A stretch of 24,359 nucleotides of DNA from a virus, in the IMG/VR virus record IMGVR_UViG_3300027985_000515, positions 1 to 24,359 of that record; one strand, given 5' to 3'. This document shows positions 4,674-23,708 of the stretch, piece by piece. Within the stretch, counting starts at the first letter, position 1; each line of letters starts with the position of its first letter. The notes under the pieces are model-generated. The model did not search any database. It worked only from the letters and a program-made list of their open reading frames with translations, and was not told where the DNA came from. The position numbers and the translations under genes are program-made.

Positions 4674-7436
4674 TTACAGTCCTCTCGCAAAAATGCTTCC
4701 GACCCACTGCGAACCCGTCCACAGGAAGGTCAGAATATCCTTTTCCCCGGAACCGGAAAGATCAGGTACTCCCGGAAGCCCCCAGTTCACGCCGGTAAAC
4801 GTCGGCGTAAATGCACCGCCGGAAGTCAGCTCCAGCGTTACTACCGCACTCTTTCCGGACGCCGGAGCGTTTGAAAACGATACCGTATAGTTCCCGGTGG
4901 GCGTGAATGTGAAATGGTTTCCGGAAGACACATCCATAGTGGCAGATGTCCCGGTACTCAGCGCAACCACGGCGGAATGCAGCCCTTTTACCGTGTCTCC
5001 GCCCGCGTCCAGATTCCCCGAAGAATAGCTCCAGAATCCGCCGAAAGCCCCGCCGTCATTAAACTGTACACTTCCAGACACACCGCCCGGCTCAGGGATA
5101 AGCCCGGCCACTTCCACAATGGCCGACTGCACATCTGTAGAAGTGAGGCCACTGCTTCCGGGCGTGAAAGCATGATAATCCGCATCATACACATCCTGCC
5201 CCACACTCCCCGGATCATAAACGGTCTTCAGCATCGCCTTGCTGTTCAGGGTGGCGGTCAGGCTGGCAGGCGTTACCGCCCTCGTGGTATCTGTACCGGC
5301 AATGGATTCGTCATTGGTCGAAAGCTCTACAACGCCCTGGGCTGTCGTGGTCGCTGATACCGGAGACGCCGGAATCAGCCCGGCCACTTCCACGATGGCA
5401 GCCTGCACATTGGTAGACGACAGGCCGCTGCTTCCGGGATCAAAAGCCTGATAATCCGCATCAAACACATCCTGACCGATTCCGAGCGGGTCATAGGTCG
5501 CCATGAGCATGGCCTTGTCACTCAGGGCCTGTGTCAGACCCAGAGGCGTTACCGCCCTTGTGGCGTCCGTACCCGTAGAGGCTTCGGAAGTCGTCGCCAG
5601 TTCCACAAGCCCGGTGGAAACCGTGGTGGCTGTCCGTCCGTCCAGTGTGGCCTTAAGCCCGGAAGGCGTTACCGATCTTGTGGTATCCGTGCCGTTCTGT
5701 GCCTCGGCAGTTGTCGCCAGCTCCACAAGACCGGAAACTTCCGTTGTGGCGGTCGTAATGGCTTCCAGCTTGGCTTTCAGGGCATCCGTAAAGGCGTTTG
5801 TATCGGCATTGTTTTCATATGCCGTCTTGATCTGGGCATCGGTCATCGGGTCCCAGTCCACATCCCCGATCTTGACCCAGCTTCCCCCGGAATAGGTAAA
5901 CTGGGCTGCCGTTCCGTCGCCCTCATCCTGAACCAGAACGCACTCTCCGCCGGTAAAACCGCTGGTATCAATGGCCGCAAGAGCCGTCATATCGGCCACA
6001 GGGTCCAGCCATGTGGAACCTGCAAGCGTCGGCACATTGGCAAGCTGGCTCCAGTCTATTTTGGTTCCGTCTCCGCCCGTAGCCGCCAGTTCTGTCTTTG
6101 TCCAGTAATTGGCTGCCCGTGCAATTTCTGCCGGAATATCCGCTTCCACAAGGGTTCCGCCGTTTGTCACAAGGCCCTTGGAATCCACAATTACCTTGGT
6201 ATAGGTTCCGGCGGTGATTGCGGCGTTGGCATCCACCTTGTTTGCCAGCAATGCCGCAACCTCGTCATCACGGGCGATGGTATCCGGAATATCCGTATCC
6301 GCAAGAGCGCTGCCGTAGGTCACCAGGCCCTTGGAATCCACAATGACCTTGGTATAGGTTCCCGGCGTAATGGCAGGATTGGCGTTCACCTTGCCCGCAA
6401 GGGCTGCCGTAACTTCGGCATCACGGGCAATGGTGTCCGGAATGTCCGAATCCTCGATATAATCCAGAATATCGCTGTTGGCTTTTCCGTCCAGCGCCGT
6501 TCGGATTGCCCTCTCGGATACGATATTGGTATCCAGTCCGGGGCTTCCGATAGTGGTCACAAGGTCGGCAGACAGGATTGTCGGAACGTCGGTCAGGCTG
6601 TTGAAAGACCGCTCTGCCAGATCGGCCAGATTATGCGTATGGTTTCCGCGTGCCACTTCATTGGCACCGGTCCCGAAATTCTTGTTGAACGCCGTGTTTT
6701 TGGGAGAGATCAGAGGTTCATAGGCCTGCTCCCAGTAGGTCGTGTTGGTGGGCGCATTGCCGGAGTTGGAAATCTTGGCCCGGTAAATGGTCCCGTTATA
6801 GGATACCAGACTGCCCACCGGATAGGACGACGTTACCGACCACTCTCCCAGCCGGTCGGCGTCTGTCGTGGTAGTCCCGCCGGAAGAGGCTGTCACCGGC
6901 GGGAAATCCTGATGGTTGGCAAACGTCACCGTCCAGATCGCTCCGGCTTCATTCGGGTAATTGTTCGGGGCGTTCAGCGGGGCAACAATCCGGACATCCA
7001 TCACCGCCGGATCGGTCGTGACGCTGGCGGGGTCAATCATGGCCGCCGACTCTTCCCATATCGCCGGGGTATCCCCGTAGACAAACGCCGCATACCGTCC
7101 CCGGCTGGTCGGGTCCGGGATCACAGCGCCGTCCGGGTTGGCGATCAACTGGAATTCCTGCCAGGGATCACAGGCCACAATGGCCTTGTATCCGGTTCTG
7201 GATTTCCCCGGATAATATTTTACAGGAGTACCATTATAATTTTCGATACTGACCACAGCCCCCTGAACCGCATGGCCGGGCGTACACCGGGCAATCATTC
7301 CGGTGTCTGTTCTGTACACGGGGTCTCCAATCCGGATTTCGGTCTCGGATGCCTCGATCAGATATTCCCGCCGCTTGAAGTCACCCGTAGGGTCCGTAAC
7401 CGGGCGGAAACCGTATGTCCTTGCAGTGTTCGTCAT
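4674..7436 (-). CDS. Tail fibre or appendage protein, 920 aa, with N-terminal decoration-like domain
   Basis: This is a modular fibre. Residues 1-180 match the two decoration-like proteins at 15385-16761: GFRPVTDP, then RIGDPVYRTDTG, YNGTPVKYYPG and a closing WTVTFANHQ. Residues 195-240 resemble a CBM5/12-like module (YPVGSLVSYNGTIYRA, then YWEQ). Residues 245-345 hold typical fibre text (NKNFGTGANEVARGNHTH). Residues 347-397 and 398-448 are tandem 51-residue repeats (TYTKVIVDSKGLVT). Residues 530-560 read MTDAQIKTAYENNADTNAFT. The unit GLVELATTxEAxxGTDxTRxVTPxGL occurs three times (about 563-735), and a 42-residue YDPxxxGQDV unit twice (648-689, 740-781). The last 135 residues are a beta-rich tip. 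These repeats are common in phage side fibres. The start overlaps the previous stop (ATGA). Confidence 0.93.
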   Translation of the reverse strand: MTNTARTYGFRPVTDPTGDFKRREYLIEASETEIRIGDPVYRTDTGMIARCTPGHAVQGAVVSIENYNGTPVKYYPGKSRTGYKAIVACDPWQEFQLIANPDGAVIPDPTSRGRYAAFVYGDTPAIWEESAAMIDPASVTTDPAVMDVRIVAPLNAPNNYPNEAGAIWTVTFANHQDFPPVTASSGGTTTTDADRLGEWSVTSSYPVGSLVSYNGTIYRAKISNSGNAPTNTTYWEQAYEPLISPKNTAFNKNFGTGANEVARGNHTHNLADLAERSFNSLTDVPTILSADLVTTIGSPGLDTNIVSERAIRTALDGKANSDILDYIEDSDIPDTIARDAEVTAALAGKVNANPAITPGTYTKVIVDSKGLVTYGSALADTDIPDTIARDDEVAALLANKVDANAAITAGTYTKVIVDSKGLVTNGGTLVEADIPAEIARAANYWTKTELAATGGDGTKIDWSQLANVPTLAGSTWLDPVADMTALAAIDTSGFTGGECVLVQDEGDGTAAQFTYSGGSWVKIGDVDWDPMTDAQIKTAYENNADTNAFTDALKAKLEAITTATTEVSGLVELATTAEAQNGTDTTRSVTPSGLKATLDGRTATTVSTGLVELATTSEASTGTDATRAVTPLGLTQALSDKAMLMATYDPLGIGQDVFDADYQAFDPGSSGLSSTNVQAAIVEVAGLIPASPVSATTTAQGVVELSTNDESIAGTDTTRAVTPASLTATLNSKAMLKTVYDPGSVGQDVYDADYHAFTPGSSGLTSTDVQSAIVEVAGLIPEPGGVSGSVQFNDGGAFGGFWSYSSGNLDAGGDTVKGLHSAVVALSTGTSATMDVSSGNHFTFTPTGNYTVSFSNAPASGKSAVVTLELTSGGAFTPTFTGVNWGLPGVPDLSGSGEKDILTFLWTGSQWVGSIFARGL
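6093..6398 (-). repeat. Two tandem 153-bp repeats inside the fibre gene
   Basis: Units at 6246-6398 and 6093-6245 encode 51 residues each and are nearly identical around CTTGGAATCCACAAT (starting at 6177 and 6330, exactly 153 bases apart). They encode a fibre shaft repeat and could change copy number by recombination. Confidence 0.85.
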
Positions 7437-11844: not shown

Positions 11845-12759
11845 CTATATTCCGGGAACCATGTAGACATGGGCCGGTCTGCCTGCTCTCTGTGACAACC
11901 GCATCCGGATCTGGTAAATGGCGTCACCGGTTTCATAGTCACCATGACGGGCGGTTGTGGCCGGAACCCTGTCAAATGCGATAAAGCCGACCAGCGGGTC
12001 TTTCTCGCCAAAGACAAACCAGCGGCTGTCCGTAATCCCCGGATTCACCACCAGCCTGATGTTCCGGCGGGTCTTCAGGGCGTTGATTGCATTGTTCGCC
12101 GTCTCCGCTTCCTGTGCAGATTCCAGAATCTTTGCCATCTGCATTTCCAGCAGCGGCCCGCACATAATTCCCTTGACCGTCCGCACCGCCATTTTTCCGC
12201 GTTCGTCCGGCATATTTTCATAGTTGAAAATGGATGCGGATACCGTGGCCTCGGTCGGGTCAGCCGCAACCGGATGGATATTGGACCACGTTCCACCGCC
12301 CAGCCGGTCATGATCCGGGGCAAAGATGGGTTTCAGATCACCGGCCTGAAGCTCCGGGTCTGTCGTCACCTGATCCCCCAGCATGAACAGCCGGTTCCGC
12401 AACAGCGCCTTGGTCGCCGCAGCAGAAATCCCCAGATCAGCCATGATCCGTTTCATGACACCGTAAAGCTCGTCCTCGATCAGCTCTTCCGTGATCCGGG
12501 CCGCAAGGCCGAAGGTACGGTGCGTGGTCGTGATTTCCGGTCCCTGAATCCGCTCGTCATATGCGTAGGGAGTTCCTTCCGGCTTGTGAACCATGTAGGA
12601 ATAACCGCTGACGTAGGTCGCCCGCTCATAGGCTTTTTTCGAGCCTTTCACGGTATAGACCTCTTTCCACGTCTGCGGGATCGTCCCGTAGGCTGCCGTC
12701 GCCACGCCGAACAGGCCCGGAGAAATCGTCAGATTGAATTTGGCTCTTGATTCAGCCAC
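11845..12759 (-). CDS. Major capsid protein (HK97 fold, Mu gpT-like)
   Basis: This 304-residue protein starts at GTG 12759 with GAGGTG ideally placed. It resembles Mu gpT-type major head proteins: an N-terminal stretch with TWKEVYTVKGSKKAYERATY, the loop TPYAYDERIQGPE, the helix GLAARITEELIEDELYGVMK (spine-helix-like; family members read GLxxxIxREMIEDDxYG), FAPDHDRLGGGTWSN and a C-terminal beta region ending MRLSQRAGRPAHVYMV. It would form the icosahedral shell. It is separated from the scaffold by six genes rather than following it directly. No N-terminal delta domain of HK97 type is obvious, in line with a separate scaffold protein. Confidence 0.88.
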   Translation of the reverse strand: MAESRAKFNLTISPGLFGVATAAYGTIPQTWKEVYTVKGSKKAYERATYVSGYSYMVHKPEGTPYAYDERIQGPEITTTHRTFGLAARITEELIEDELYGVMKRIMADLGISAAATKALLRNRLFMLGDQVTTDPELQAGDLKPIFAPDHDRLGGGTWSNIHPVAADPTEATVSASIFNYENMPDERGKMAVRTVKGIMCGPLLEMQMAKILESAQEAETANNAINALKTRRNIRLVVNPGITDSRWFVFGEKDPLVGFIAFDRVPATTARHGDYETGDAIYQIRMRLSQRAGRPAHVYMVPGI

Positions 12760-12848
12760 TTTTCACCTCATCATCAGGCCGGATAAAACAGCGGCCCCCA
12801 AAAACAGGATTGATAGATATATATCCAGATTCCGGATTACATGGGCGG

Positions 12849-13070
12849 CTACGCAGCCTTTTCCGGTTCCGGAGTTCCGGATTCCGATGCCTTCCGGATA
12901 GTGGCATTCTCCTGCTCGGTAAAAAACTTCAGGGCTTCCTGACTTGCCCTGACGTACAGGCCGTTTACCATATTTGCCGTAACCCGGTTGCCGTGGTCTT
13001 CTCCGACAAGCCTTGACGCTGTATGCCCCACCCATTCCGCCACCTGCTCCTTCGTCATGTCGATATCCAT
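12849..13070 (-). CDS. Small helical protein, 73 aa, unknown
   Basis: The frame runs from ATG 13070 (an alternative ATG lies at 13058) to TAG 12849. The AGGAG upstream is 12 bases from ATG 13070, a little far. The sequence (MTKEQVAEWVGHTASRLVGE, then RASQEALKFFTEQENATIRK and an acidic Pro/Glu/Ala tail) is soluble and helical, with normal composition. The competing frame 12763-13080, from a GTG nearer that AGGAG, is Arg/Gly-rich and looks like a shadow. Position just before the capsid gene suggests a small head component. About 90 bases with nothing recognisable separate it from the capsid start. Confidence 0.65.
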   Translation of the reverse strand: MDIDMTKEQVAEWVGHTASRLVGEDHGNRVTANMVNGLYVRASQEALKFFTEQENATIRKASESGTPEPEKAA

Positions 13071-13086
13071 ACAGATTCACAATCTC

Positions 13087-14388
13087 CTATGCAGTCTCTC
13101 CGATCAGGGAGAGAGTCTTGAAATCCGCAATCAAGGCCGCCACACGAGCCGCCAGTTCCGGAAGGGTAACTGTATCCACATCAAAACCTGTCCGCAGCGG
13201 TGTCCCCGTATTGGCTCCGTAATCCTGCCGGTCCGCTCCCAGTGACAACACAACCCTGGACGTATGCAGGACTTCCAGCCGTCCGGATGTAACACCCATG
13301 TGGACGTCGCCCGTATTCGTACAGAATCCGTTCGGGTAGGTGTCCGAAGCTCCGATACCGGCAAAGCTGATCGTATGGCCGGATGCCAGCGCAATCGCTG
13401 TCTCCGAACACGACATCAGGGTGAAGTCCATACCGATCCGGGCCAGACCCGTACCGGAATACATCACATCCACCGGGCTGGTTCCGGCGCTCTGGGGCCG
13501 GTATCCGATCCACGATTCCCCTTTGGCAGCCGTGTCATTGGTCCGGGTCATGTTGATGACATGACCGGCGCAGCAGACGTCATACCCGTCATCGTTAAGG
13601 TCGTACTCAACAGGATTGACATAAACGCTGTTTGCACCGCAGCCGACAGAGCCGTTCAGGATCACGCCCGCAGGATTTCCCACCCATGTCGTGTTCCCGA
13701 TGTCCGGTCCGTTCACCGTCACCATCGCATTATAGGCCACAGCGTCCCCCGCCCCGGAGTTCTGGAGAAAGACCTGATGCGCACATACCCCGGTCCGGCT
13801 CATGTCCGCAGATGTCCCCCCTGCTCCCACATGGGAATATCCGCCCTCGTTCAGGAAAACGGTGAAATGCGCAGCGGTCTGCGGGTTATACAGATACCCG
13901 GTCTCCGGAGTTCCGACGGTATCGTCTCCGGTGACATGCTTGTAAACAGCGGTTGCGCACCGGGAATAATCCCCGGCAAACACCGAATCCAGCCCCAGAT
14001 TCGGCGGAGCCGCCGCATCCCTTTCCGCTGCCGTCCATTCATGCCGGACATAATCCGGTGCCTGAAGCACACTGCTGATCCGGAGTTGTCCGGATCCGTA
14101 ATATCTTTTCTTCAGGGTCATTCCGGCAGGAACTTCCCACACACCCGCCGGAACATAGAAACACCCGATTTCCGTATCCGCTTCCATTGCCGTAAAGGCT
14201 GCGGTGTTGTCTTCACCTTCACCGGAGACAGTCCCGTAATTGGTCACCGGTACAGACGGCACCGTTGCCCGGAACGGTTTCCCGGCGGTTCCTTCTCCCA
14301 GCACGGTCTTGTCATTCCGGAACGGGAGAAGGTCCATCGGGCATTCCGCTGTCCCCAGACCGTAAAATCTTGAGGAAAAACTGGTCAT
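13087..14388 (-). CDS. Tailspike-like (pectin-lyase-type beta-helix) protein, 433 aa
   Basis: It starts at ATG 14388 overlapping the previous stop (ATGA), with AAGGA seven bases upstream. Residues 50-105 carry the signature of phage pectate-lyase-superfamily spikes: YGTVSGEGEDNTAAFTAM, then CFYVPAGVWEVPAGM and YYGSGQLR, comparable with yGAxgDGxtDdTaAxq and vPaGxY. The middle is beta-rich with repeated Gly, Asn and Thr. The C-terminal 30 residues (TLPELAARVAALIADFKTL) form a short coiled coil that could trimerise the protein. It would bind or degrade a surface sugar. Catalytic acids cannot be assigned. It sits among head genes, so a head-fibre role is also possible. Confidence 0.75.
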   Translation of the reverse strand: MTSFSSRFYGLGTAECPMDLLPFRNDKTVLGEGTAGKPFRATVPSVPVTNYGTVSGEGEDNTAAFTAMEADTEIGCFYVPAGVWEVPAGMTLKKRYYGSGQLRISSVLQAPDYVRHEWTAAERDAAAPPNLGLDSVFAGDYSRCATAVYKHVTGDDTVGTPETGYLYNPQTAAHFTVFLNEGGYSHVGAGGTSADMSRTGVCAHQVFLQNSGAGDAVAYNAMVTVNGPDIGNTTWVGNPAGVILNGSVGCGANSVYVNPVEYDLNDDGYDVCCAGHVINMTRTNDTAAKGESWIGYRPQSAGTSPVDVMYSGTGLARIGMDFTLMSCSETAIALASGHTISFAGIGASDTYPNGFCTNTGDVHMGVTSGRLEVLHTSRVVLSLGADRQDYGANTGTPLRTGFDVDTVTLPELAARVAALIADFKTLSLIGETA

Positions 14389-15384: not shown

Positions 15385-16038
15385 TCAGCTACAGATGATC
15401 CCGGTTACATCTCCGGGATCATTGTCGCAATAGTTCGGCCGGTGTCTGTCCGTAAATCTCTGGTAATAATTGATCTTAACGACATACCGGCAGTAAAATT
15501 CGTTGGCGATATTCCCCGGATTATCCAGCCGGTCAATGATGGTTATCTGGTCGTCTTCATACTGGCCCATACCGGCGGTATTGACCGAAAACGAATGGAT
15601 ACACACCCCGGACAATCCGGTGGCTGCTGAACCGCCTGTATCCATCAGGTTCGCATTCCCCCATCTGTGGTCCTCGATGCGGATGGAATTCCCGGAATCA
15701 ATCAGCGTATATTCCTGATCCGGATCATCACAGATCACGGCAGTCCAGGGCAGCCGGTGAACTCCTTCAGGCCGGTATGACCGGGGAACGCCCTCATGGT
15801 CATAGAGCTGGAGCAAAATCCCCTTGATCGGCTTTCCGCAGCCCATCCCGGCCTTGGTCACTCTCCGGGTCTGATGGTCCAGAATCACCGGGTCTCCGAT
15901 GTACAGGGCTTCCACAACCGGAGCCATGTTCCCGACCACAGGGCCGTCATCATAATTGCACGGGTACGATCTCCGGCGGACACCATGCGGGTGGTCCACA
16001 GGCTCAAAGCCACGAGGCATGAATAGATTCTTCTGCAT
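15385..16038 (-). CDS. Decoration-like capsid-associated protein, copy 2 (217 aa)
   Basis: It starts at ATG 16038 behind GGGGGTGG. It shares an ordered set of motifs with the neighbouring 236-aa protein and with the N-terminus of the 920-aa fibre: GFEPVDHP near the start, LYIGDPVILD, a YDHEGVPRSYRPEG block, DDPDQEYTLID and a C-terminal YVVKINYYQRF. Proteins with GDPV near the start and an INNHQ-like end are common beside phage capsid genes and are probably decoration or cement proteins; that role is inferred. It carries several Cys (CNYDDG, GCGKP and the C-terminal CDNDPGDVTGIICS), unusual among these copies. Confidence 0.75.
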   Translation of the reverse strand: MQKNLFMPRGFEPVDHPHGVRRRSYPCNYDDGPVVGNMAPVVEALYIGDPVILDHQTRRVTKAGMGCGKPIKGILLQLYDHEGVPRSYRPEGVHRLPWTAVICDDPDQEYTLIDSGNSIRIEDHRWGNANLMDTGGSAATGLSGVCIHSFSVNTAGMGQYEDDQITIIDRLDNPGNIANEFYCRYVVKINYYQRFTDRHRPNYCDNDPGDVTGIICS

Positions 16039-16050
16039 CTGCCACCCCCG

Positions 16051-16761
16051 TTATATGCCTGTGGTAGTCACCCGCTGGTGATTGTTGATCTGGACAATCC
16101 ACGAAATCACCGGCTGCGCAGTTTCTCCGATGGCGCAGACTGCCCAGTCAGACATTGCCGAATTGTCCGTATTCAGTGCGTAGTACCATTCTTCCAGATC
16201 CTGCCGGTAAACGACCTCTCCCTTTGCCGGAAGATCCTGACGGCCCCGGATACGGGTATCCGGGTCATACTTGAGCATCGTGTTCTCGTTCTGGAAAATC
16301 CGGAACGGATAATCCCTCAGCACCGGTTCAATCAGCCGGAGCTGGCCGGTGGCTGCCGTTGTCTTGCTTCCGGCGTTCAGAACCGCCCCGCTGACCGGGA
16401 TCACCTCGTTAACCGTCTCGAACCGGAAATTGATGTTCATTCCCCGGTCTGCCGGGTCTTCAAGGGCAACCGTCAAATCCTGAATCTCGTACTGCTGATG
16501 TTCCCACGTGTTGACTTCCGCAAACCATCCGGTCTCTCCGGCAGGATAAAAAATCTGCGGAATCCGGTCCGGGCCGTGGAAGGAGTTGATTACCCCGATC
16601 ATCGCCCCGCCTGCCGTTGCCCGGACGATCTTTCCGCTGGCATTGAGAACCACAGGATCATGGATATACAGATTCTGGCCGCCCGCCGGATCAACAGCGA
16701 TCCGTTCCCTGTCCGGTACATGCGGATGCTGGACCGGAACCAGCCCGTTTGCCTGAAACAT
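16051..16761 (-). CDS. Decoration-like capsid-associated protein, copy 1 (236 aa)
   Basis: It starts at ATG 16761 with GAGGTG five bases upstream. The motif order is the same as in the next gene and in the fibre N-terminus: GLVPVQHP, LYIHDPVVLNASGKIV, AMIGVINSFHGPDRIP, QIFYPAGETGWFAEVNTWEH and a terminal WIVQINNHQRV. Residues about 165-215 appear to be an insertion relative to the other copies (YRQDLEEWYYALNTDN). Position between scaffold and capsid genes, with a partner copy 13 bases downstream, suggests a pair of shell-surface proteins. Family placement is by motif pattern only; no biochemical role can be read from sequence. Confidence 0.75.
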   Translation of the reverse strand: MFQANGLVPVQHPHVPDRERIAVDPAGGQNLYIHDPVVLNASGKIVRATAGGAMIGVINSFHGPDRIPQIFYPAGETGWFAEVNTWEHQQYEIQDLTVALEDPADRGMNINFRFETVNEVIPVSGAVLNAGSKTTAATGQLRLIEPVLRDYPFRIFQNENTMLKYDPDTRIRGRQDLPAKGEVVYRQDLEEWYYALNTDNSAMSDWAVCAIGETAQPVISWIVQINNHQRVTTTGI

Positions 16762-18579: not shown

Positions 18580-18858
18580 TCAGGCCGCAACCAGCTTTCT
18601 GCCTGCGTTTTCGTCGTCGATAATTTTTACTCCTGGCACAAATACCAGCGCCTCAGCAACATTATCTCCCTGCTGGGTTGTAACCTGAACGATACAGCCG
18701 ACTCCGGGAACTTCACATGCCTTGGTAGATTTCATCCAGCCTTCTCCTTGAGACGAAGCCTTGCAAAGCAAGCGAAACATATCGCCGTCTCCGACTACAA
18801 CCAGATCCTTAACATTATCTCTGGCACCTGATATTGTTGAATTATGTAATGTTTTCAT
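18580..18858 (-). CDS. Small head-cluster protein, 92 aa, unknown
   Basis: ATG 18858 gives MKTLHNSTISGARDNVKDL as the start. AAGGAG lies 13 bases upstream, a long spacing; a GTG at 18885 would add nine basic residues, lacks a close ribosome site and overlaps the portal end. The protein is small, Gly/Val-rich and beta-like (LVVVGDGDMFRLLCKASSQG, CIVQVTTQQGDNVAEALVFV), so it resembles a small decoration or head-stabilising protein, but I cannot place it in a family. It follows the portal gene and is separated from the next gene by the structured element at 18483-18560. Confidence 0.72.
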   Translation of the reverse strand: MKTLHNSTISGARDNVKDLVVVGDGDMFRLLCKASSQGEGWMKSTKACEVPGVGCIVQVTTQQGDNVAEALVFVPGVKIIDDENAGRKLVAA

Positions 18859-18881
18859 TGGTAATAACCGTCTCCTTGAAA

Positions 18882-20921
18882 TCACTCGTTTTGCGGAACC
18901 CCCATCGCCCGTTCGATCACAGGGCGGATCAGTTTCTTCTTGGCAGATTCCACCACCTGATCCTGTAATTTCTGATCTTCGGTCCCGCTGTTCTTTTCCG
19001 CAGTCCGGTAAAACTGTGTCCGTGTCACGTTCTGCCTTGCCTGATCGGCAAGCAGCTTTGCCTTCTGCTGTTCCTGTTTGCCCTGCAAATACTTCTGCGC
19101 CACCTGTATCAGTTCGGGATTCTGCTTCAGGAGCTTGACCATGACCGCCGAATTCGGGTTGATATACTTGTCAGGCTCATAAATCCCGTAGGCCGCAATC
19201 AGATCACGGGTGATGGCAATCGGGTCCACATTGGGATTCGCCTGAAACAACTGGTATCTTTCCGCTGCTTCCCGCCGGGCCAGCATCTTGTTTGATCCGC
19301 TGTCAGATACCTTGATGCGGATGTCGTACTCTCCCTGAAGGGCCTCTACATCCACAGTCTTGAATATCCACTGATTATCGTGGAATATCCTCATCTTGGC
19401 ATCTGCCGGGATATACCAGGCATAAATCTGGAAACACGCCTTGACCAGTTGCTCCACCACTTCCCGGACAGACTCGCCCCGGTAGCTGTGGGTAATCTGG
19501 CTCTCCGAAGAGATCAGGGCCATGCCGGAATAGGTTTCCGTACCGCCGCCTGCCCGCGTCCCGCCCGGATTCCCAGGCAGTATGGCGTCCATCAGGGATG
19601 TCAGACGTTCCAGAAATCCCATGAGCAGGCTGATGAAATTGATAAAATGCGCACTCTGTACGCCGGTCTTGGATGCCGGATGCGGAACCGCATCCTTGGG
19701 CAGGGTTCTCCATTTGCCCGGAGAAATCGTCAGGCTGTCCGTCGGAATCGTTCCCAAACCTTCGGATATGAATCCGGCGTCCGTAACATCCAGAATCCCC
19801 TGATCAATCATGATATTGTAAATGTCATCCACGCCCGTGGAATAGTCCTCGATCAGCTTGGGGATTCCGGTCCCAAGGCTCTCCCTTGTCTCCTTGTAAA
19901 TCGAAAGGCGGAAGACCGGTTTCCCCTCAAACGGGTAAACCTCGGACAACGGCTGGTTGCGAACTTCCCGGTATCCGGCATCTATGGCGATGGTGACGAT
20001 CCGCCATTCCTCGCCTTTCCACTTGATGTAACATTCCAGCAGCTTGACCTCTTTGGAATAGGCCGAGTATTCAATTTCCAGATCCTCGATTTCCTCGTCC
20101 GGGAGTTCCCTGTCCCGTGCGCTTTCACTGGCAAGATCATCCGTGATGTCAAAATAGGGTCCGCCATTCTCTTCGGACAGCGCCCGAAGCTCGTATATCG
20201 TCGGATAGATCAGGCGCATATACGGGGCATTATCCCAGTTATCCCAGTTATCCGGGAAAAAGGCGTCTTCCAGCGCCACCTGTTCCAGTTTCGTCCTGAA
20301 GCGTATGGCCGTCCGCTCTTCCCGGATGTCCGCCATTCCGATCATGCCGGACTGCTGCATCATGGCGAATTCAGGACGTGCCATGATTTCCGGCGGAACC
20401 GGGACCTCACCGTCCGCCAGCCGGAGAACCGGAACCGTCCGCCGTGCCTTGCGGATCACTTCCCGTTCGTGCCATACCGGGATAACATCCACAGTTCCGT
20501 CCACCAGCAGGTCATGAACAATCGGCCTCAGCTCGGACTTCAGGTGCATGGAGTTGTTCGCCATCCACTTCAGGAACTTCTGGACATCTTCCACGCTTTT
20601 TGAATCTTCAGCGTCCACAGGCTCGGCAGTCAGAAAGTCCGCGTCCGAAACCAGCTGGGCCATAAGCCGTGGGTCAAGATGCTCCACCGTGATCCGCTCC
20701 AGTTTCATGCTTTTGTCCGAGCAGCCCTTGAACGGAAACGTCTTTTCCGGGCGGATACCCTTCAGGCGTCGCCTGCCTTCTGCGATTTCGTCCAGCTTGT
20801 CCCGGCGATATTCCGAATCCCGGAACTCATCGTACAGGTCCACACAATACCGGACCATATCCGACAATTCGCTGTCATCCGCTTCGGTACGGGTTTCCCG
20901 ATCAAGCACAACGGGTTTCAT
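18882..20921 (-). CDS. Portal protein
   Basis: This 679-residue protein starts at ATG 20921, overlapping the previous stop (ATGA), with GAGAGGG upstream. It has portal features: an acidic N-terminus with the cluster EEFRDS-like YDEFRDSEYRRDKLDEIAEG, a beta-rich wing (VLRLADGEVPVP, RFRTKLEQVALEDAFFPDNW), a clip/stem region with YKETRESLGTGIPKLIEDYS and MGFLERLTSLMDAILPGNPG, and a Gln/Lys-rich helical C-terminus (AQKYLQGKQEQQKAKLLADQ). Portals of this length occur in podoviruses, including P22-like phages. It would form the 12-fold ring through which DNA enters. The position two genes after the terminase is as expected. Confidence 0.9.
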   Translation of the reverse strand: MKPVVLDRETRTEADDSELSDMVRYCVDLYDEFRDSEYRRDKLDEIAEGRRRLKGIRPEKTFPFKGCSDKSMKLERITVEHLDPRLMAQLVSDADFLTAEPVDAEDSKSVEDVQKFLKWMANNSMHLKSELRPIVHDLLVDGTVDVIPVWHEREVIRKARRTVPVLRLADGEVPVPPEIMARPEFAMMQQSGMIGMADIREERTAIRFRTKLEQVALEDAFFPDNWDNWDNAPYMRLIYPTIYELRALSEENGGPYFDITDDLASESARDRELPDEEIEDLEIEYSAYSKEVKLLECYIKWKGEEWRIVTIAIDAGYREVRNQPLSEVYPFEGKPVFRLSIYKETRESLGTGIPKLIEDYSTGVDDIYNIMIDQGILDVTDAGFISEGLGTIPTDSLTISPGKWRTLPKDAVPHPASKTGVQSAHFINFISLLMGFLERLTSLMDAILPGNPGGTRAGGGTETYSGMALISSESQITHSYRGESVREVVEQLVKACFQIYAWYIPADAKMRIFHDNQWIFKTVDVEALQGEYDIRIKVSDSGSNKMLARREAAERYQLFQANPNVDPIAITRDLIAAYGIYEPDKYINPNSAVMVKLLKQNPELIQVAQKYLQGKQEQQKAKLLADQARQNVTRTQFYRTAEKNSGTEDQKLQDQVVESAKKKLIRPVIERAMGVPQNE

Positions 20922-21583: not shown

Positions 21584-23569
21584 TCACAGATCGTATACGT
21601 TGTCCGGTTCAAAAAACGTCATACACACACTGACCGCCCTGTCCGGTGATCGCTTCAGAAGCGTCCGCAGGGTATCGCTGTCCGTAATCCTGATCTCGTC
21701 ATTCACCACGAAATATTCCGGTGCCAGAATCTCCTGAATCAGCAGGTCATCCGGCGGGAGCATGGCCTCGTCTGTTCGCAGCCACTCCCGGAGCATCCAC
21801 CAGAGCTGATCCCGCATCCGGTGAAAGCTGCCAAATTCGCAATTCCGGGTTGAACCGGATGCGGCCTTTACAGAGTAGGCGTTACAACCGTTCTTGATCA
21901 TCCGGGGCGCAACACCGGAACCGACTCCGGTCCCGTCTATGTTGGCGTATGCGACGTCATGTTTTGCATAAAACTCGGCAGAACGTTCTGCCGTTGTGTC
22001 CGTGTCAATCCCGGACCACGTTCTGATCCGGGAGAGAAATCCCCCGGAGCGAAGGACACACGCATTATAGTCTGTCCCGTACTCCGCAACATCCAGCCCC
22101 ATAATCGGGCGGGTGAATTGCGGAGGATTTTCCCCGTATTGAGAGACATAATTATCCCAGCGCAACCGGGCCTTATTGACCCATTCGATGCTCACAAGCT
22201 GGGCTGTACCCTCGGCAGGATACTTGCCCATAACCATGTAGTAAAATGCAGGTTCGATGATCTTGTAATGGCCCGCTGCCAGCGGAGGATACATACCGCC
22301 GTCTGTCCGTGGGCCTGCATAGCCTTCCAGATATTTGGGCAGGTCAAAGCAGGTATCATCCACTTCTTCATCTGCTGTCAGCGGGCGGCACCATTCCTGA
22401 ATCCGTTGCACCGTCTTGTCCCGCGTAACCGCTCCGGGAATCACATCGGTCCCCTTGACGACGTTGGGATGCGTAAACGCAGACAATTCCACTACTGTGG
22501 CCTCACCGTTGCGCTCCATCTCCCATACACGCCCCCGGCTTCCTCTGGGGTTGAACATGATCAGAAGGCGGGCATTACCGCCGGACATACACGATTCAAT
22601 CCCCTTGTAGACTTCAGGGTAAACGGCGTCGCCTTCATCCACGATAAAGAGCAGGTTGGGGCTGTGTTTTCCGCTGAATTTGGCTTCCCGATCATGACCT
22701 GAACCGCTGACCGGGATAGTCACACCAGTAAGAAAGTTTTCAGGGTCGGCCTGAATATGAAGCGCCTGTACCTTGTGATCCCGGAAAAGGTTGTTGTGCC
22801 TTTTCAGAACGCCCAATATCTCGCCCCAGAGGAGCTTTTTTAAATTTCCTTCGGGCGGGGCAGCCAATGTATAAACCCGGCTCTCCGGGAAGACCCTGCG
22901 CCACCACAGGGCCACACGGGCGGCACCGTGGGTCTTTCCTGTGGCATTGGCAGACCGGGCAAGGGTGATCGGGTTATCCCGGACACTCTCCATCATCCGG
23001 CAGATGTCGGATGTATAGGTTTCTCCAAGTTCAATTTCCCCGAAGGCCACCGGACTCCGCTGGTAGATCGTGTAATCCTTATCGCCACTTCCACCGGCTC
23101 CTGCCGCAAACTTCTGTTCAAGGAGCGGGCCGTATTCGTTCTTGATCAGGGCAAGGATATTGGTTGGGTCCTTGTCAGGCCCGGCCACATTCACGGCGAT
23201 CCTGACTTTTGTTTCAATCCCCCGCATCAGGTCATAGCCTGCCTGTCGCTTCTCCTTCACCGTTGTGTTCGGATCGCTGAACAGGCCATAATGGAATTCC
23301 TGTATTTTTTGCAGGAGGTTCAGGTCGTCCGGAAGGGTAGCCTGGGTGAAATCCTGAATCTGCTGGACAACCCTCTCCTGCCGCTCCTTGCGAATATCCA
23401 CAAGGTATCTGGAGACAGCAGGCTGGAGGATGCTGTCTTTTATCCCCCGGCCTGCCAGTTCATCCGTCAGCCTTTCAGCTACCGTTTCCATCGGGAGGCC
23501 AATCTCGAAATACAGATGCAGACACATATCCCGCAGCCCGTACTTCTCAATTTTGGCGACTCTCCCCAT
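21584..23569 (-). CDS. Terminase large subunit with an N-terminal small-subunit-like domain
   Basis: ATG 23569 gives 661 residues and has GAGGGG just upstream; a TTG at 23581 would add four. Residues about 165-661 are a full large terminase: Walker A SANATGKT (206-213), Walker B LLFIVDEGD with Asp311-Glu312, coupling motif FNP (339-341), and RNase H-like nuclease acids in MGLDVAEYGTD (Asp493), ANIDGTG (Asp545) and SPDRAV (Asp643). It would translocate and cut DNA at the portal. The first 165 residues are extra: a helix-turn-helix-like region (MCLHLYFEIGLPMETVAERL, then LQPAVSRYLVDIRKERQERV) reminiscent of DUF3486/Mu gp27-type small terminases, plus a helical linker. No separate small subunit gene is visible, so this may be a TerS-TerL fusion. 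Confidence 0.92.
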   Translation of the reverse strand: MGRVAKIEKYGLRDMCLHLYFEIGLPMETVAERLTDELAGRGIKDSILQPAVSRYLVDIRKERQERVVQQIQDFTQATLPDDLNLLQKIQEFHYGLFSDPNTTVKEKRQAGYDLMRGIETKVRIAVNVAGPDKDPTNILALIKNEYGPLLEQKFAAGAGGSGDKDYTIYQRSPVAFGEIELGETYTSDICRMMESVRDNPITLARSANATGKTHGAARVALWWRRVFPESRVYTLAAPPEGNLKKLLWGEILGVLKRHNNLFRDHKVQALHIQADPENFLTGVTIPVSGSGHDREAKFSGKHSPNLLFIVDEGDAVYPEVYKGIESCMSGGNARLLIMFNPRGSRGRVWEMERNGEATVVELSAFTHPNVVKGTDVIPGAVTRDKTVQRIQEWCRPLTADEEVDDTCFDLPKYLEGYAGPRTDGGMYPPLAAGHYKIIEPAFYYMVMGKYPAEGTAQLVSIEWVNKARLRWDNYVSQYGENPPQFTRPIMGLDVAEYGTDYNACVLRSGGFLSRIRTWSGIDTDTTAERSAEFYAKHDVAYANIDGTGVGSGVAPRMIKNGCNAYSVKAASGSTRNCEFGSFHRMRDQLWWMLREWLRTDEAMLPPDDLLIQEILAPEYFVVNDEIRITDSDTLRTLLKRSPDRAVSVCMTFFEPDNVYDL

Positions 23570-23647: not shown

Positions 23648-23688
23648 AAAGCAGCGTAAAAGCAGCGCAAAGCGACGCCAAAGCAGCG
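23648..23688. repeat. Four 9-bp iterons (AAAGCAGCG) in helical phase
   Basis: AAAGCAGCG occurs at 23648-23656, 23659-23667 and 23680-23688, with the variant AAAGCGACG at 23669-23677. Start-to-start spacings are 11, 10 and 11 bases, one DNA turn each, so bound proteins would line up on one face. The array lies about 80 bases upstream of the terminase start. A terminase recognition site (pac/cosB-like) or an operator is plausible. Confidence 0.7.
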
Positions 23689-23708
23689 TAAAAAAAACTT
23701 GACAGCAT

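Follow-up and report, generated by a model that had tools for sequence, protein, structure and literature searches.

Introduction

Does a single gene of this virus carry both subunits of its terminase? In phages with a two-subunit terminase, the small subunit (TerS) selects the viral DNA and the large subunit (TerL) cuts and pumps it. The mechanism of TerS is debated: DNA may pass through the TerS ring, DNA may be wrapped around the ring, or TerS may be a mere loading factor. Part of the debate stems from the mismatch between free TerS rings and the symmetry of the TerL motor. Free rings consist of 8-12 subunits (PMC9611059), and in phage P22 the TerL N-terminus (residues 1-58) binds the C-terminus of TerS (PMC9611059). 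In the literature searched, which comprised open-licence papers only, a naturally occurring TerS-TerL fusion was not described.

The stretch of DNA analysed here, hereafter the window, comprises the 24,359 bases of a virus record. It has no terminal repeat and is therefore probably a fragment. An earlier note had proposed that its terminase gene is a fusion of TerS and TerL. In this study, we compare the gene with its relatives in sequence, predicted structure and genomic context. We consider it probable (roughly 0.78) that it encodes a natural single-chain terminase, composed of a TerS domain of the Mu gp27/DUF3486 type (residues 1-130), a linker of about 35 residues and a complete TerL.

The proposed fusion gene and its domains

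The gene occupies positions 21584..23569 of the minus strand, from an ATG at 23569, directly preceded on its 5' side by GAGGGGTT, to a stop codon at 21584-21586. It encodes 661 aa, and the same architecture is present in two further contigs, L068 (IMGVR_UViG_3300018080_000469) and L069 (IMGVR_UViG_3300017963_000596), both from IMG/VR. Residues 1-59 (23393..23569, minus strand) are predicted to form a helix-turn-helix (HTH) DNA-binding domain with helices 13-23, 27-40 and 49 onward, based on an AF2 model and on the phrog_426 match of the relatives. A helical region, residues 60-130 (23180..23392, minus strand), is predicted by AF2 at moderate to low confidence, and VIA-align superposes the model on G20c/P74-26 TerS. 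It comprises the end of helix 49-78 and the helices 80-98 and 104-129, and is a putative oligomerisation core. The linker, residues 131-165 (23075..23179, minus strand), was delimited by TerL alignment and AF2; it includes a Gly-rich segment, AAGAGGSG, besides a short helix, and it takes the place of the N-terminus of about 36 aa found in stand-alone TerL.

Positions 21587..23074 (minus strand) encode the TerL ATPase and RNase H-like nuclease, as indicated by phrog_2 and by invariant alignment columns. A complete TerL begins at about residue 160, residues ~160-655 aligning over the full ATPase-nuclease (phrog_2, 3e-23). Conserved alignment columns include the Walker A motif (SANATGKT, 206-213), the Walker B motif (DEGD, 311-314) and acidic positions of the nuclease, D493 and D545 among them. 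With these motifs and both domains the C-terminal part is, by its sequence, a TerL, and it is 45-60% identical to many viral and prophage TerL proteins.

Elsewhere in the window, 4674-7436 encodes a 920-aa fibre-like protein; a 153-bp tandem repeat (6131-6453, 2.1 copies, 80% match) lies inside this gene. Part of the same ORF shares a domain with the ORFs 15385-16038 and 16051-16761 and with the G400 protein 12692-13228 (phrog_37556). A 101-aa ORF adjoining the portal gene (18580-18885, minus strand) is 71% identical over 89 aa to the G400 ORF 30171-30566. Since the G400 counterpart lies at a different place and in a different orientation, this small gene seems to be mobile.

Rarity and conservation of the extension

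For 108 related TerL loci whose 5' ends are closed, repeat fetches of one contig among them, we measured how many residues precede the position of window residue 166. This N-terminal length was 12-63 residues (median 36) in 106 of the 108, as against 165 in the window and, counted from the first possible start codon, 188 in L068 and 162 in L069. The extension is thus rare among these relatives (2/108). By this comparison the excess is genuine and amounts to about 125-130 aa beyond the ~36 aa of relatives.

L068 and L069 match window residues 1-660 at 53% identity as the same full-length fusion. For the N-domain alone identity to the window is 39% (L068) and 41% (L069), and further head-module genes are common to all three contigs in the same order. 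A comparison of L068 with L069 gave a dN/dS of 0.13 for residues 1-130 and of 0.05 for TerL. These values are rough, dS being near saturation; they indicate that the fusion, including its junction, is under purifying selection. Within the window, frame 0 is the frame favoured by codon usage along all of extension and linker, and no hidden frameshift was seen there, both other frames being stop-rich.

These data bear on the explanation that two overlapping genes were joined artificially, through an error in assembly or sequencing. In many relatives the upstream ORF overlaps terL by up to ~120 nt, and one indel could join such a pair. Such an error would, however, have to account for the same junction in two contigs whose protein has diverged from that of the window to the extent given above, for purifying selection across the junction and for the stop-rich alternative frames of the extension. 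We rejected this explanation, which retains a negligible probability and is in practice refuted by L068 and L069. As the same full-length fusion recurs in both, the extension is not an assembly error; judged from these sequences, the fusion is a conserved gene, and the central proposal of the earlier note is borne out in that the ORF is real and its extension conserved.

A further alternative is that translation of the gene also begins internally, so that a separate TerL is made alongside the fusion. The candidate start in the window is GTG codon 126, which follows an AGGA by about 7 nt and would yield a TerL of the usual size. Neither L068 nor L069, however, has a start codon at the corresponding position, and we regard a dual product as improbable.

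A TerL gene with an in-frame insert of about 370 aa was observed in a Smithella MAG contig (L031:913-3717). The insert has LAGLIDADG_3 (1.3e-15) and intein-splicing-like matches and is a probable intein.

Relationship of the N-terminal domain to small terminases

The family link of the N-domain becomes apparent through the relatives. L069 (4.1e-5, residues 1-86) and L068 (4.8e-4, residues 1-80) match phrog_426, 'terminase small subunit', in PHROGs. Because four PF11985 members taken from genomes match phrog_426 at 1e-18 to 1e-41, we regard it as the PHROGs counterpart of PF11985 (Mu gp27, DUF3486). The window N-domain would be included in this family by its 39-41% identity to L068 and L069. 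Searched alone, it gave no significant match in Pfam, PHROGs, NCBIfam, PDB sequences, IMG/VR or phages (tblastn), and scattered weak matches only in 395 genomes of the Desulfogranum phylum. None of the three fusion proteins matched the Pfam model of PF11985, even with E values up to 1 admitted. Weak matches to PriX, a transaminase and T2SSC, none of which reaches its cut-off, were judged to be due to chance.

In hhalign, the three fusion N-domains aligned to 12 PF11985 members with a score of 39.7 (probability 85); among 200 column shuffles the highest scores were 34.4, reached once, and 19.6, with a median of 12.5. The score dropped to 22.2 without L065 and L066, the members most like the fusion N-domain, and the window N-domain alone scored 19.2, which is shuffle level. 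Taken together, these matches point to a distant relative of the Mu gp27/DUF3486 class and not to a Pfam-defined member. In this distant form, resting on the phrog_426 matches of L068 and L069, the DUF3486-type assignment of the earlier note holds. That note had named an unrelated fold as counter-evidence; the extension appears related to a small-terminase family instead. Likeness to Mu gp27/DUF3486 also includes an N-terminal motif like M[GS]RxSK(V/I), an HTH with an SRxxxxRY-like helix and a helical remainder, in addition to the matches, by profile and in PHROGs, that the fused relatives provide. By contrast, gp27 is encoded by a separate gene in Mu-like phages, whereas here the domain forms the N-terminus of TerL, and past about residue 86 the fusion N-domain has no detectable family match.

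An AF2 model of the extension built from 11 alignment rows has a mean pLDDT of 76. Residues 1-60, at 82-97, are confidently modelled as an HTH, the N-terminal element generally found in TerS, in agreement with the HTH-like region recognised earlier; helices 80-98 and 104-129 are predicted at about 60-80. The top three VIA-align chains are all small terminases (6ejq, Z 6.9; 4xvn, 6.8; 6v1i, 6.7), and the helix order in the predicted model is similar to that of G20c/P74-26 TerS, which is, in contrast, a separate ring-forming protein. With Z below 8 (6.7-6.9) and an rmsd of 11-12 A this fold match is weak and within the chance range for helical models. Foldseek of the 11-row model against PDB and BFVD gave no match with E <0.001. 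Single-sequence AF2 of the extension was poor (pLDDT 55), and Foldseek on that model is meaningless.

The closest relatives with two genes carry a different TerS. In the Desulfogranum marinum/Deltaproteobacteria prophages L029 and L028, TerL is 54-60% identical to that of the window and terL is followed by a gene of ~220 aa, as in the window, but TerS (155-167 aa) and TerL are encoded by two genes, with TerS directly upstream and of different sequence. A TerS profile of L005, L028, L029, L038 and L039 scored 16.5 against the fusion N-domain, which is shuffle level, and the fused TerS and the TerS of its nearest relatives therefore seem to come from different TerS lineages.

Search for a separate small subunit

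Relatives place TerS beside TerL. We took 75 non-redundant loci, each extending 700 bp or more upstream, and counted same-strand ORFs of at least 100 aa abutting or overlapping the terL start. Such a TerS-sized ORF was present in 65 of the 75 loci, several of these ORFs carrying an HTH; none abuts or overlaps terL in L068 or L069. At one locus (L002:3-454) the upstream TerS-like gene lies in two frames, owing to a frameshift or a sequencing error.

PHROGs searches of ten other window ORFs found no TerS family, and TerS profiles run over all ORFs of the window, L068 and L069 revealed no separate TerS. No TerS family match occurred among the G400 ORFs tested, the coverage of G399 and G400 extending to part of their ORFs. 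A stand-alone TerS, which had been named as evidence against a fusion, was hence not encountered in the window or in two longer fused relatives, as far as their ORFs were tested. The statement that no TerS gene lies upstream of the terminase gene is correct for what is visible, namely 790 bp, at which distance the window ends; it does not extend beyond.

All three fusion contigs are probably fragments, which favours a P2-like arrangement, in which the extension would be an accessory HTH on TerL and a separate TerS would lie in the unsequenced part of the genome. In P2 gpP, a TerL composed of Terminase_5 and Terminase_6N/6C, about 160 residues precede the ATPase domain and begin with an HTH (Terminase_5, residues 12-69; ATPase match from residue 164); P2 has a separate TerS, gpM. 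It follows that an HTH before the ATPase domain is not in itself proof of a fused TerS, and we regard gpP as a partial precedent. The N-terminal parts are nevertheless not detectably similar: hhalign gave 14.6, at shuffle level, and the HTH of Terminase_5 (PF06056) is not matched at the fusion N-terminus. The TerS family match of the relatives' N-domain over residues 1-86, the searches described above and the position of TerS beside TerL in relatives also speak against a P2-like arrangement, which is unlikely.

L068 (1801-2088) and L069 (2323-2610) each contain, about 0.4-1.2 kb upstream of the fusion, a gene for a 95-aa winged-HTH protein; in the window, whose end comes first, it is not visible. 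This protein could be the true TerS, comparable to lambda Nu1, itself a winged-HTH protein, with the extension doing something else; it might also be a further protein of the packaging machinery. It is 77% conserved between the two contigs and HTH_17-like (E 0.003-0.004, below the Pfam cut-off). Yet its best PHROGs matches, which are weak, concern a DNA-binding protein and an excisionase/regulator, and no TerS is among them; the gene is short and does not adjoin terL; and if it were the TerS, the phrog_426-like domain would lack an explanation. By eye, L012 and L014 have small HTH genes of similar appearance upstream of their normal TerS genes, though HMM searches found no homologue. We consider this assignment very improbable.

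Tandem repeats upstream of the fusion gene

TRF detected 4.3 tandem copies of an 11-bp iteron, TTT[GT][GA]CG[TC][CT]GC in gene orientation, at 23648..23693 (minus strand), 79-124 bp upstream of the ATG. No array of that period and score appeared in 400 dinucleotide shuffles (0/400). The repeats reported in the earlier note are thus real, although they extend to 23693 and not to 23688, and repeats in a corresponding position accompany the gene in both fused relatives. L068 and L069 have 4.5 and 4.2 copies, respectively, of the 11-bp unit TTTGGGGTGTG, 33-80 bp upstream of the ATG, so that about four tandem 11-bp repeats lie within 125 bp upstream of all three fusion genes. The unit sequence of the window differs from that of the L068/L069 pair. 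Between L068 and L069 the iteron block is 96% identical, compared with 23-39% (ungapped) for the preceding 138 bp and 72% for the following 32 bp, and TTTGGGGTGTG has no other occurrence in either contig. Arrays of period 10-12 with at least four copies number nine in 643 kb of related loci, two of them being the L068 and L069 iterons.

From its sequence and position, the block is a candidate packaging-initiation site; a regulatory site is the alternative. The pac site of SPP1 spans the start of its TerS gene and contains direct repeats (PMC4737164). The iterons resemble the SPP1/SF6 arrangement in that direct repeats occur in the region spanning the start of the recognition-subunit gene (PMC4737164), but the repeat sequences differ, and those of the fusion genes mark a candidate site only. 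The DNA-binding domain of SF6 TerS has little specificity for the pac repeats (PMC4737164), and repeats therefore need not be the bound sequence.

A TerL relative lacking the fusion, L140, has 7.7 copies of the 11-bp repeat ATGGTTGGTTT (97%) at 990-1074, about 1.8-1.9 kb upstream of terL. This array is possibly the packaging site of L140.

Discussion

A small terminase is the best reading of the extension, since family match, HTH model, position and missing neighbour gene agree. As a single-chain terminase, the protein would most likely use its HTH to bind the 11-bp iterons that lie a short distance upstream of the gene encoding it, and the TerL nuclease joined to the HTH would thereby be positioned on the viral concatemer. 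TerL may then cut nearby, dock on the portal and package the DNA, while the helical region perhaps forms an oligomer. The tether of ~35 residues would replace the non-covalent contact between TerS C-terminus and TerL N-terminus and would force a 1:1 ratio. We find it rather plausible that a lineage of tailed phages merged both subunits into an obligate chain, lost its free TerS, and so couples recognition and motor at 1:1, with the adjacent iterons as cognate packaging site.

A natural 1:1 fusion would limit the models of TerS function. It can be reconciled with a ring of 8-12 subunits only if TerS part and motor have the same copy number or if the N-domain acts without a full ring; the TerS part would thus have to function in as many copies as the motor has, or else separately from the motor. 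If true, the fusion would provide a one-protein terminase for in vitro packaging, together with a clear pair of domain and candidate site.
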